Of a stretch of DNA of 50,531 nucleotides, positions 41,300-48,110 are shown in pieces (positions within the stretch are counted from its first letter, which is position 1; each line of letters starts with the position of its first letter). Source of the stretch: a virus; the IMG/VR virus record IMGVR_UViG_3300037247_000784, positions 1 to 50,531 of that record; one strand, 5' to 3'. A model generated the notes under the pieces. It was not told the origin of the DNA and made no database searches. It saw only the letters and a list, made by a program, of their open reading frames with translations. The translations under genes and the position numbers were made by a program.

Positions 41300-41490
41300 T
41301 ACCACTCCCAGTCCACGTAATACTCCCCGCAGCTACACACGCTGTACGGGTAGTGCGTTTCACAGACTTTGGTCACCTCTAGTGGGGGGTGCTCAGGGCT
41401 ACCGTCATGGTCGGTCAGACATACTTGCATTGGCAGCAAGTGCCTGAGGGTGTGGGCGTAAGGTGGAATCTTAATAGTTACCCGGGGCAT
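41299..41490 (-). CDS. 63-aa zinc-binding-like protein
   Basis: The start is ATG 41490. Cysteines near 24, 43, 52 and 54 and nearby histidines fit a single zinc site. Expression is from the minus-strand promoter at 41511-41539. Confidence 0.5.
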   Translation of the reverse strand: MPRVTIKIPPYAHTLRHLLPMQVCLTDHDGSPEHPPLEVTKVCETHYPYSVCSCGEYYVDWEW

Positions 41491-41510
41491 GTGATGCGCC
41501 TCCTGTCTCC

Positions 41511-41539
41511 AGGATAGCCCTTGTGCACCGGTTTGTCAA
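41511..41539 (-). promoter_or_regulatory. Leftward promoter TTGACA-17-TATCCT
   Basis: On the minus strand TTGACA (41539 to 41534) and TATCCT (41516 to 41511) are 17 bases apart, ahead of the AGGAGGCGCATCAC leader of the 41490 gene. It overlaps the opposing promoter of the noncoding RNA. Confidence 0.68.
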
Positions 41540-41550
41540 CCCGCTATAAT
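41521..41550 (+). promoter_or_regulatory. Rightward promoter of the noncoding RNA
   Basis: TATAAT at 41545-41550 is a perfect -10; TTGTGC at 41521-41526, 18 bases upstream, is a weak -35. It is interleaved with the leftward promoter, so the two probably exclude each other. Transcription would start near 41557. Confidence 0.62.
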
Positions 41551-41556
41551 GTGAGA

Positions 41557-41931
41557 GCCGTGGTTAAGTGCACCTATCGGATGTGGGGTGCCGGCCTGTA
41601 CAGCCCGCGGCGCAAGGATGCGCGGGGCTGCCGACGTGCTCGCGGGTGAGACGGCGGCAAGACCTCCTCACCCAATACACTAGCGCAAGGATGCAAGGCC
41701 GCCTAGGGTGGGCCTCAAAACCCCCCTAGGATGGTCTTCATACGCAAGGACGCGCCGGTACAGCGATTGGTGCGGTAGATTGGCTTCCCGGGAGTCTGGG
41801 TGGGAGCTGGCCGGCATTACCCTGGCGCTTAAGCAAGTGCTGAACCGCTAGGGTTGCCCCCCTGGGGTCGTGAAGTTGACCACCCCAGGCTAACGACGTG
41901 GGAGGGAAGCACCTCCCACGTTGTTCTTTTT
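41557..41931 (+). ncRNA. Structured noncoding RNA, possibly a CsrA-type decoy
   Basis: About 375 bases lie between a TATAAT promoter and a strong intrinsic terminator, with no credible coding frame or ribosome site. Five GGAYG elements occur at 41579, 41616, 41689, 41729 and 41748, and three share CGCAAGGA(T/C)G. The first is displayed in a hexaloop, GCGC-AAGGAT-GCGC (41610-41623), inside an outer AGCCC/GGGCT-type stem. The last is CGC-AAGGAC-GCG (41743-41753). Other stems are CCTAGGG with CCCCTAGG (41702-41730) and CCTGGGGT with ACCCCAGG (41861-41889). GGA in hairpin loops is how CsrB/RsmZ-type RNAs bind CsrA/RsmA. That role is inferred; a ribosome-binding decoy or a new phage RNA class are alternatives. 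Confidence 0.62.
41892..41931 (+). terminator. Intrinsic terminator of the noncoding RNA
   Basis: A 14-bp stem (41892-41905 with 41912-41925, one G-U pair) closes the hexaloop GAAGCA and is followed by CTTTTT. It is the clearest rho-independent terminator in the window. Confidence 0.88.
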
Positions 41932-41942
41932 AACCTCGACCC

Positions 41943-41972
41943 TTGACCTCCTAAGCCGGCGCCCGCTATAGT
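41943..41972 (+). promoter_or_regulatory. Rightward promoter TTGACC-18-TATAGT
   Basis: TTGACC at 41943-41948 and TATAGT at 41967-41972 are 18 bases apart, right after the terminator and before the GGAGG of the 41993 gene. This isolates the noncoding RNA as its own transcription unit. Confidence 0.68.
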
Positions 41973-41992
41973 GTAGATAGGAGGATTACACT

Positions 41993-42319
41993 ATGCCCCT
42001 TAGACCAAAGCCCAAGTTCACATATCCGTTCGCCGACACTCCTACGCCTTTTGACGTTACGCTGGCGGTAGCGGCGACGGCTGAAGACCTGGTGGCGGTT
42101 CCGGGGAGCAAGAAGGGTCGTACCCTGTCCCTGATAAACGAGGGGCCGGGGTCTGTGGCCCTCGCTTTCGACGCCACCGCTACAGCCTCTGACCTTCTAT
42201 TGGAGGAGGGCGATGCCTACGATGAGCGCGACCTCGAAATCAGCACCAACATCTCATTCATCAACGTGACGGCCGGACAGACCCCGCGAGTGCGTGGTAT
42301 ACTCTGGAGTGGTGACTAA
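41993..42319 (+). CDS. 108-aa beta-rich protein, possibly virion
   Basis: ATG 41993 follows TAGGAGGATTACACT. The sequence alternates short strands (TLAVAATAEDLVAV and RTLSLINEGPGSVAL), like small beta-sandwich head or tail proteins. It has its own strong promoter. No specific family is recognised. Confidence 0.55.
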   Translation: MPLRPKPKFTYPFADTPTPFDVTLAVAATAEDLVAVPGSKKGRTLSLINEGPGSVALAFDATATASDLLLEEGDAYDERDLEISTNISFINVTAGQTPRVRGILWSGD

Positions 42320-44239: not shown

Positions 44240-44310
44240 GCACCGGGCTCTGGGAGCAGGTAGGTCTCCAAAACCTACCGTTCGGAGTTCGATTCTTCGA
44301 CGGTGCGCCA
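44240..44310 (+). tRNA. tRNA-Trp (CCA) with short D arm
   Basis: The anticodon arm TAGGT-CTCCAAA-ACCTA and the following CGTTCGGAG-TTCGATT segment closely match tryptophan tRNAs. Acceptor GCACCGG pairs with ACGGTGC except the last pair, the discriminator is G as usual for Trp, and CCA is encoded. The D arm is reduced to GCTC-TGG-GAGC, giving only 71 bases in all. It may be functional or a decayed copy. Confidence 0.65.
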
Positions 44311-46218: not shown

Positions 46219-46329
46219 TTGGACTGGCTAACCCTTCTGGTCGTCGTGAACATTTTCGATACGATGTGGGGTCTCTTTCTTCTGGCCTGGTGGCTTGGCT
46301 GGCGCAGGCGTAACGGGAGGCCACAATGA
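46219..46329 (+). CDS. 36-aa membrane peptide
   Basis: TTG 46219 lies behind GGAGGGCGACCCTC, and the TGA overlaps the terminase ATG as ATGA. The peptide is mostly hydrophobic (DWLTLLVVVNIFDTMWGLFL) with a basic end (WRRRNGRPQ). Another frame, GTG 46191 to TAA 46313, has a good ribosome site too but reads less like a protein. Confidence 0.4.
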   Translation: MDWLTLLVVVNIFDTMWGLFLLAWWLGWRRRNGRPQ

Positions 46330-48110
46330 CTGAGCTTTCCACTGCCCGGAGACTAGAAGAGAACCTCTTCGACGACCCCAACGTCCAGCGAATCTTCTTC
46401 GGCGAAACCCCGCAGGACGAGATTGACTGGATTGAAACTCTTCTCAGTATCGACTCAGAGCAGGGTAAGGTCGTCAAGTTCCGTCTCTACCCCCAGCAGG
46501 TGCAAATGGCTCACAACAAGACGGGGCGTGACCTTACGGTCAAGGGGCGCCAGACCCGTGCGTCTTCGTACATTTTGGCGAAGAACCTGCGGCGGATGGT
46601 GACACACTCGGGTCTGAAGTGCCTGGTGATGACTCAGAAAGACCAGGTTACAGGGACGTTCCGCGCGCGCATTAAGCATCACTTAAAGGACTTGGAACAG
46701 CACGGCTTCCCCTTCGCCCTTGGTCTCGATAACGACGATGAGTTGGAACTCACCGATACAGGCTGCCGTTTCCTGTTTGGTTCGGGGGAGGAAAAGTCGG
46801 GAACTGGTAGGGCATACAGTGCACATATAGCTCATTTGTCTGAGTTTGCTTGGTGGCCGGGAGACCAGGCCCGCGTTCTCATTGGGGGCATCACTCCTTC
46901 CGTGCCGGGGCCACCTGCTGGGTGGATGGATATTGAGTCGACGCCCAATGGTGCTGAAGGCCAGTTCTATGACATGGTGATGGACTCCAAGACCTACAAT
47001 CAGCAGTCCCGGTGGTCGACACACTTCTACCCGTGGTGGTTGGAGCCCCGCTACCGCGCCGGCACCACACCCGGGTGCGACGTGCCCTACACCGAGCAGG
47101 AGTGGGAGGGCCTCCTCCAGAACTTCAACCCGACTGTGGAGGAGGAGAAGCTCATGGATGAGTACGACCTTGATGTGGGTCAGATTATGTGGCGCCGTGT
47201 GCGGAAGTCGGAACAGGATAAGACCGATTCCCCCTTCCTTCAGGAGTACGTGGAGACCTTGGAGGGTTGCTTCCTGACGGCCGGTGGGAGCTACTTCGCT
47301 ACCCAGGAGGGTATCAACCACCTGGAGCAGTACCGGCAGACGGTCAAGCCACCTAAGGAAATTGTGGAGAGCGTGCCGGGGAGCTCAGTGGGCTTCATGG
47401 GGGCTGGCCTCCACGTCTGGCAGCGCCCCCAGCTTGGGCGCCCCTACGCCGTCTGGGTGGACTGCGCCGGCGGCGGTCTTGACGAGGGGGCGGACTACAC
47501 TGCTATCATCGTGCTGGACTGCGCCGATATGTTCGTTGCGGCTAGGCTGGCGGTTAAGGTAGCGCCTCAGGAGGCGGCACCGATGGCGGTGGCAATTGCT
47601 AAGTATTACAACAACGCCCTGCTGGGGGGGGAACGCGACGCCTACGGCTCCGTCTGTGTGGCGAAGGTTCAGGATATTGGCTATAGGAACCTGTGGTTCT
47701 TCATTGAGCCTGGTCAGTCGATGAGCATCAAGAAGCCCATCCAAGACCCGTGGGGCCACCCCACCCAGATTCGCCAGCACATCTTGAACGCGCTCCGTGA
47801 GAAGGTGTTCTCCGGTCTCTTCCACACCTCTGATGCCTGGGGTGTACAGCAGATGGGAGCATTTACGTGGCAGAAGGTAGCGCAGAAGCGCCACGGGCTC
47901 AAGGAGGCGGGGAAGGGTCAGAAGGACGACCTTGTGATGTGTTACGCCGGACTCTGCTACATTGCACCAGCGGCGGCCGCACGGTACAATGCAAAGCAGG
48001 GGCGCTCAATAGGCCCTATTAAGGAGAATGAGATAATCACGGTCGGGCCTCATGGACTTGTGCAAGACCGACGAATGGCCGGAGCCCTACCGTGGCCTTG
48101 GTTGAAATAG
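46326..48110 (+). CDS. terL: Terminase large subunit
   Basis: The 594-aa packaging ATPase-nuclease has KGRQTRAS (about 74-81) as a deviant Walker A with R in place of the usual K, a coupling strand CLVMTQKD, and HLSEFAWW with the Walker B/catalytic acidic pair. An RNase H-like nuclease follows: VDCAGGGLDEGADYTAI (about 379-395) and a late KDDLVMCYA giving the last acidic residues. It translocates DNA into the prohead through the portal, encoded next but one. Confidence 0.9.
   Translation: MTELSTARRLEENLFDDPNVQRIFFGETPQDEIDWIETLLSIDSEQGKVVKFRLYPQQVQMAHNKTGRDLTVKGRQTRASSYILAKNLRRMVTHSGLKCLVMTQKDQVTGTFRARIKHHLKDLEQHGFPFALGLDNDDELELTDTGCRFLFGSGEEKSGTGRAYSAHIAHLSEFAWWPGDQARVLIGGITPSVPGPPAGWMDIESTPNGAEGQFYDMVMDSKTYNQQSRWSTHFYPWWLEPRYRAGTTPGCDVPYTEQEWEGLLQNFNPTVEEEKLMDEYDLDVGQIMWRRVRKSEQDKTDSPFLQEYVETLEGCFLTAGGSYFATQEGINHLEQYRQTVKPPKEIVESVPGSSVGFMGAGLHVWQRPQLGRPYAVWVDCAGGGLDEGADYTAIIVLDCADMFVAARLAVKVAPQEAAPMAVAIAKYYNNALLGGERDAYGSVCVAKVQDIGYRNLWFFIEPGQSMSIKKPIQDPWGHPTQIRQHILNALREKVFSGLFHTSDAWGVQQMGAFTWQKVAQKRHGLKEAGKGQKDDLVMCYAGLCYIAPAAAARYNAKQGRSIGPIKENEIITVGPHGLVQDRRMAGALPWPWLK

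Follow-up and report, generated by a model that had tools for sequence, protein, structure and literature searches.

A noncoding RNA of a tailed phage, predicted to be transcribed from its own promoter at the start of the rightward (packaging) operon, represents a real new family of independently transcribed, modular and structured phage RNAs, as deduced from transcription signals and comparative sequence analysis. Two of the seven family members carry arrays of the 10-mer GCAAGGAYGC, which resembles the sites recognized by CsrA. An accessory function of these arrays in titrating CsrA on an otherwise structured phage RNA is the best single mechanism that we can offer, and it is put forward tentatively. 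The RNA was detected in a 50.5-kb IMG/VR virus record, which has a length of 50,531 nucleotides and is referred to as the window.

The window encodes a family A DNA polymerase, helicases and a RecA/UvsX-like protein, along with a TerL protein (46326-48110) that was recognized by a weak profile match and 24% tblastn identity to annotated terminases. The predicted TerL and replication genes mark the window as a tailed dsDNA phage. Since its close relative G001 (IMGVR_UViG_3300043220_000070), whose TerL protein is 93% identical, comprises 75.6 kb with repeated ends, the window probably covers only part of its genome, about two thirds of one of this size. The first and last ~126 bases of G001 are identical, which indicates a circular or terminally repeated genome of ~75.4 kb. 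Close DNA relatives were absent among named phages, no csrA gene was present in the 12 phage records of the group, and the GTDB species genomes contained no TerL relative at the search sensitivity used. A search for the host by means of the replication proteins gave no answer. The tRNA-Trp (CCA) gene at 44240-44310 in the rightward operon yielded its best phage matches with Streptomyces phages, and these were weak (85% over 72%). CsrA is generally scarce in actinobacteria, and an actinobacterial host, if this were the case, would put the idea of a CsrA decoy in trouble.

The noncoding RNA is located at the junction of a leftward gene block and the rightward operon, with TerL following ~4.4 kb downstream. 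The first-pass annotation had described an isolated transcription unit with a TATAAT promoter, about 375 noncoding bases, a 14-bp terminator with a U-run and a new promoter thereafter, and all of these elements were confirmed:

41522-41550, plus strand: promoter of the noncoding RNA, with the weak -35-like box TGTGCA (41522-41527; three of six positions fit), a 17-nt spacer and the TATAAT box (41545-41550)
41557-41931, plus strand: structured noncoding RNA of ~375 nt, with a predicted start at ~41557 and a predicted end at ~41931
41892-41931, plus strand: intrinsic terminator, consisting of a 14-pair stem (41892-41925) followed by CTTTTT
41943-41972, plus strand: promoter of the next rightward operon, TTGACC-18-TATAGT
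41993-42319, plus strand: gene for a 108-aa protein with no assigned function, located 3' of the RNA in the window, G001, L003 and L011

No convincing open reading frame was found between the promoter and the terminator of the RNA. Short reading frames starting from the ATG in GCAAGGATGC were rejected, as AAGG directly abuts the start codon, the third copy of the motif has ACG instead, and the frames are not conserved. The region 41557-41931 thus has the appearance of a noncoding unit that is transcribed on its own, in line with the earlier reading as an autonomous phage RNA. Independent transcription and termination, as expected of RNAs of the Csr/Rsm type, are predicted here from promoter and terminator signals. 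The predicted fold of the RNA has a free energy of -187 kcal/mol and is more stable than that of shuffled sequences (z = -3.9).

Relatives were gathered via TerL and the downstream 108-aa protein, and six phage genomes from IMG/VR proved to have a counterpart unit at the equivalent position, giving a family of seven with the window. A short transcription unit 5' of the rightward operon is accordingly present in G001 (across the contig ends), L004 (identical to L012), L005, L003, L011 and L008, and the relative L014 has no RNA at the corresponding place. Upstream of the RNA, G001, L003, L004, L005 and L011 also have a TATAAT, TATAGT or TATACT box with a spacer of 17-18 nt, and TTG-type -35 boxes occur at 17-18 nt from the TATA boxes in most family members. 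Local alignments yielded 81% identity over 79 nt and 71% over 153 nt between the window and G001, as well as 86% over 71 nt between G001 and L004. The modules of the other members showed identities of 77-78% (G001/L004 with L003), 78% (L004 with L011), 80% (L003 with L011) and 77% (G001 with L008). Such alignments with common modules join all members of the family except L005, which is linked by its position, its promoter, a GCTAACG...CGTTG end recognized by inspection and the 10-mer. Three modules were delineated in the window RNA:

41743-41818, plus strand: third copy of the 10-mer with a GCCGG...GCCGGC helix, common to G001 (81%)
41820-41853, plus strand: hairpin CCCTGGCG...CGCTAGGG, common to G001
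41857-41891, plus strand: hairpin CCCCCCTGGGG...CCCCAGGCTA, common to G001, L004 and L011, with a compensatory replacement of a G-C pair by A-U among the relatives

The indels in the common modules are of non-triplet length, an argument against a coding function. The 3' hairpin varies among the relatives from CCTGGG/CCCAGG to CCTAGG/CCTAGG. A module common to G001, L004 and L003 is composed of two ten-pair helices and a C(UACG)G loop, and all 20 pairs are kept in each of the three sequences (60 of 60 cells), two of them being altered on both sides. Sliding of the partner strand reduced the pairing to 37-58%. The covariation score of these sequences, which are only three in number, was matched by 127 of 500 shuffles, and the case for this structure therefore rests on the slide control and on stability. 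A three-way junction is common to G001 and L008 (z -3.4 in L008). Compensatory changes, non-triplet indels and a stable fold, the hallmarks of a structured noncoding RNA, are thus all observed. The earlier annotation had proposed to check its reading by covariation; compensatory changes were found in the helices of the family and not around the GGA loops, and the closing GC pairs of these loops are uninformative because they never vary.

Further features were noted in the course of the comparison. The junction takes the form GGYCAGUGAUA-hairpin-U-CCC..GGG-UAGCUGGCC at L008 2071-2118 and L030 217-171 (minus strand), and one of its helices shows a compensatory change. Another conserved core, ACAGCCACGAAC ... 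GGTGGGWACGTGGAGAGTAAGC, is shared with 80% identity over 69 nt by two relatives that lack the GGA motif (L003 4174-4240 and L011 1720-1787). In G001, a 242-aa open reading frame lies between a window-like promoter region and the noncoding RNA (L030 1150-360, minus strand), and the RNA has a second TATAATGTGA promoter, an arrangement that suggests an insertion plus a duplication of the promoter module.

The first-pass annotation had counted five GGAYG elements within about 175 bases of the RNA, three of them sharing a longer motif, and both statements hold true. The window RNA contains exactly five GGAYG sequences (starting at 41579, 41616, 41689, 41729 and 41748) in a span of 174 bases, compared with 0.97 expected (P about 0.001), and three of them are part of GCAAGGAYGC:

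41579-41583, plus strand: extra GGATG
41612-41621, plus strand: GCAAGGAYGC copy 1, GCAAGGATGC, with AAGGAU predicted as a six-base loop closed by C-G
41685-41694, plus strand: GCAAGGAYGC copy 2, GCAAGGATGC, for which no loop is predicted
41729-41733, plus strand: extra GGATG (AGGATGG)
41744-41753, plus strand: GCAAGGAYGC copy 3, GCAAGGACGC, conserved with G001, L004 and L005

The three copies of GCAAGGAYGC compare with 0.0012 expected under a first-order model (Poisson P 3e-10), a value that carries the caveat that the pattern was picked after it had been seen in the window RNA. This caveat is removed by L005, since its RNA independently repeats the 10-mer with five exact copies (0.0028 expected, P 2e-15). 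In both RNAs, GCAAGGAYGC is the most repeated 10-mer. The copies of L005 lie in dissimilar, non-homologous flanks, and it is therefore the 10-mer itself that is kept. In the alignment of copy 3 from the window, G001, L004 and L005, GCAAGGA.GC is invariant, with a mean column identity of 63% for the whole alignment. The shorter motif CAAGGAYG, for which dinucleotide shuffles predict 0.01 occurrences per such RNA, is present in three copies in the window and six in L005, once each in G001 and L004, and not at all in L003, L011 and L008. This distribution indicates that GCAAGGAYGC is an added element kept or spread as a 10-mer and not part of the RNA core, as far as the compared sequences tell.

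Neither of the two RNAs contains the 10-mer in reverse orientation, and the spacing of the copies is 59-73 bp in the window and 57-89 bp in L005. A common orientation and spacings in this range would also suit direct-repeat binding sites (iterons) for a DNA-binding protein that lie within a transcript by coincidence. Such a DNA-level element is quite unlikely, as all copies fall within the stretch that is transcribed, from promoter to terminator, their spacing is irregular, and the motif of the single-copy relatives adjoins conserved RNA modules with compensatory changes. An action of the transcript as base-pairing (antisense) small RNA or leader-type regulator, with incidental repeats, is improbable to a lesser degree; it agrees with the RNA having its own promoter and terminator and with the variation of the modules between relatives, but the RNA is highly folded and leaves few open stretches, and the repeats exceed chance by far in two members.

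The earlier annotation had assigned at least two of the sites to hairpins with a loop of six bases and a closing GC stem. When the full-length RNA was folded, the C-AAGGAY-G loop proved robust for copy 1 only, the probabilities being 0.98, 0.04 and 0.02 for copies 1, 2 and 3, with unpaired fractions of the GGA triplet of 1.00, 0.60 and 0.73, respectively. Copy 3 formed the six-base loop only as an excised fragment (-3 kcal/mol), and native flanks did not favor this loop over shuffled flanks (P 0.18-0.30). A reading of the GCAA of the motif as a GNRA tetraloop fits G001 and two copies of L005 but not the other copies and was rejected by inspection. That loops do not form above the level of shuffles, together with the lack of the motif in three of the seven members, would be expected of functionless repeats arising by chance or by neutral duplication in a GC-rich structured RNA. 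This explanation is highly improbable in view of the P values obtained for two separate RNAs and of the dissimilar flanks, which oppose the copying of longer units.

The 10-mer was compared with the sequence requirements of CsrA, for which SELEX yielded RUACARGGAUGU as the consensus, the GGA lying in a hairpin loop (PMC4347634), and with the Csr/Rsm consensus CANGGANG (PMC6849547). Every copy fits CANGGANG and also the CARGGAUG core of the SELEX consensus, save for a C in some copies. Three CANGGANG sites are present in the window RNA (0.11 expected) and seven in that of L005, with none or one in each of the five other members. The N position is A in all copies, which is stricter than the Csr consensus demands. 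The base 3' of GGA is always C or U and never G, which bears on the proposal that the RNA acts as a ribosome decoy or regulator, its AAGGA loops binding the anti-Shine-Dalgarno sequence of 16S rRNA by base pairing. Five anti-Shine-Dalgarno bases are indeed complementary to AAGGA, and the motif occurs in multiple copies; the G needed to extend the pairing to AAGGAGG is nevertheless always missing and the conserved GC on both sides is not explained, so that this proposal is very unlikely. The window RNA shows no overall excess of GGA triplets (9 vs 7.6 expected, P 0.32), and their number amounts to 25 vs 18 expected in the L005 RNA (P 0.017) and to 22 vs 14.8 expected in the Escherichia coli CsrB control (P 0.005), in which GGA is 80% unpaired. 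The decoy proposed by the first-pass annotation is thus favored by the consensus fit and by the larger array of L005, and it is weakened by the absence of a match to a Csr/Rsm family, the siteless members, the single robust loop and the lack of a GGA excess.

CsrA titration is not the core conserved function of the family, because three of the seven members have no site and two have only one. The RNA may have another core job, for example in assembly or packaging or in the regulation of late genes in their operon, and GCAAGGAYGC may dock another phage or host protein or form a tertiary contact. This explanation, which is somewhat doubtful and about as probable as titration, agrees with the position of the RNA at the start of the rightward operon ahead of TerL, with the retention of the remaining modules in the motif-less members and with an invariance of the motif (GC on both sides, A at the N position) that exceeds the needs of CsrA. 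The RNA is, on the other hand, not essential for the group, as L014 manages without it; no phage RNA-binding protein was identified; and a copy number of one to six is more in keeping with a titration site than with a structural module.

In the titration mechanism that we infer, the tailed phage would transcribe a group-specific modular RNA at the start of its rightward operon, and the RNAs of the window and L005 would have gained C-AAGGAY-G arrays in which GGA is offered to a host protein of the CsrA/RsmA type. If the sites are bound, and if the binder is CsrA, several CsrA dimers might be held at once, and the consequence of binding would be a lowered level of free CsrA during infection and the relief of CsrA-repressed host or phage mRNAs. 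A broader reading, in which the RNAs form a phage family of CsrB-like decoys, some members of which evolved arrays of CsrA sites to reprogram the carbon metabolism of the host or to relieve CsrA repression during infection, is considered doubtful.

Searches for known RNA classes and for further members were carried out with Rfam 15 and IMG/VR. The whole window contained no Rfam family at the gathering cut-off, the region 41400-42000 gave no Csr/Rsm family at E values up to 10, and a match to an unrelated known class, which would have spoken against a decoy, was likewise not found. The candidate ctRNA_pGA1 was rejected, as it reached 22.6 bits vs a cut-off of 45 and covers only the 3' hairpin and the terminator. 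An exact 22-mer had no match in IMG/VR, and scans with the conserved 3' hairpin and with the neighboring protein revealed no phages beyond those already found. Motif-array pattern scans of IMG/VR yielded, among the matches listed, mainly coding repeats, tRNA copies and one CRISPR-like array (L175 2148-3885, a viral contig with many repeats containing CAAGGATGCTCAGCTCCTTATAAGATTGAGAC); L005 was the sole member of the RNA family among them, beside a group of leader arrays in Pseudomonas prophage and R-tailocin loci:

L050 3766-3980; L072 3963-3876, minus strand; L105 197-290; L074, L079, L110, L122 and L141: leader arrays
EU982300.1, about 1808-2024 (L163): leader array

These loci contain three to six CA(N)GGA(N)G sites between the gene for a PrtR-type repressor and com/holin genes. 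The matches listed include 19 distinct arrays, in which the N position is occupied by A, U, G or C, most sites retain the closing GG/CC stems, several hairpins are closed by GG...CC, and GGA is 71% unpaired. No Rfam family was assigned to them. The Pseudomonas hosts of such prophages and tailocins have RsmA, and the arrays look like RsmA/CsrA-binding leaders by their sequence pattern. They resemble the window RNA in being phage-derived and in repeating CAAGGAYG within GC-closed stems, but apparently represent a 5' leader and not a separate RNA, vary at the N position and show no other similarity. The CANGGANG hairpin array is clearer in these leaders than in the window RNA, and the independent occurrence of nearly the same CA(N)GGA(Y)G hairpins there counts in favor of the titration mechanism. 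If the sites of the window RNA bind CsrA, then, together with the Pseudomonas leaders, it would be a recurrent strategy of phage RNAs to titrate CsrA/RsmA or to make use of it.

No report of a phage RNA that titrates CsrA was found in the open-access literature searched, which misses most subscription journals. The packaging RNA of phage phi29 is a structured phage RNA, as is the window RNA, which also has a terminase gene downstream and for which a packaging role is a rival idea. Phages are known to carry csrA genes, with 30 such phages listed (PMC7366521), an indication that the Csr system is a target of phage interference, although these genes encode a protein and not a decoy RNA. For the E. 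coli small RNA McaS, as few as two sites suffice to bind CsrA (PMC4347634); like the window RNA, McaS combines few CsrA-type sites with an otherwise structured RNA, but it is encoded on the chromosome and is not known to be related in sequence. The decoy RNAs CsrB and CsrC of E. coli and RsmX, RsmY and RsmZ of Pseudomonas likewise have their own promoter and terminator and repeated CANGGANG sites, some of them in hairpin loops, and CsrB is of similar length (369 nt). The window RNA differs from CsrB and RsmX/Y/Z in being phage-encoded, in lacking an Rfam match and a general GGA excess, and in its number of sites, with 18 in CsrB (PMC4347634) vs three in the window and six in L005; moreover, the family has large double-stranded modules unrelated to those of the Csr RNAs, and some relatives are siteless. 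Whether a decoy or not, the RNA adds a new structured family, clearly marked by its position, its promoter and its terminator, in a group of phages to which no named phage is closely related. If its sites are real, it would be a phage-encoded variant of the Csr decoy RNAs, and by binding CsrA the phage would turn the decoy logic of its host to redirecting central metabolism.
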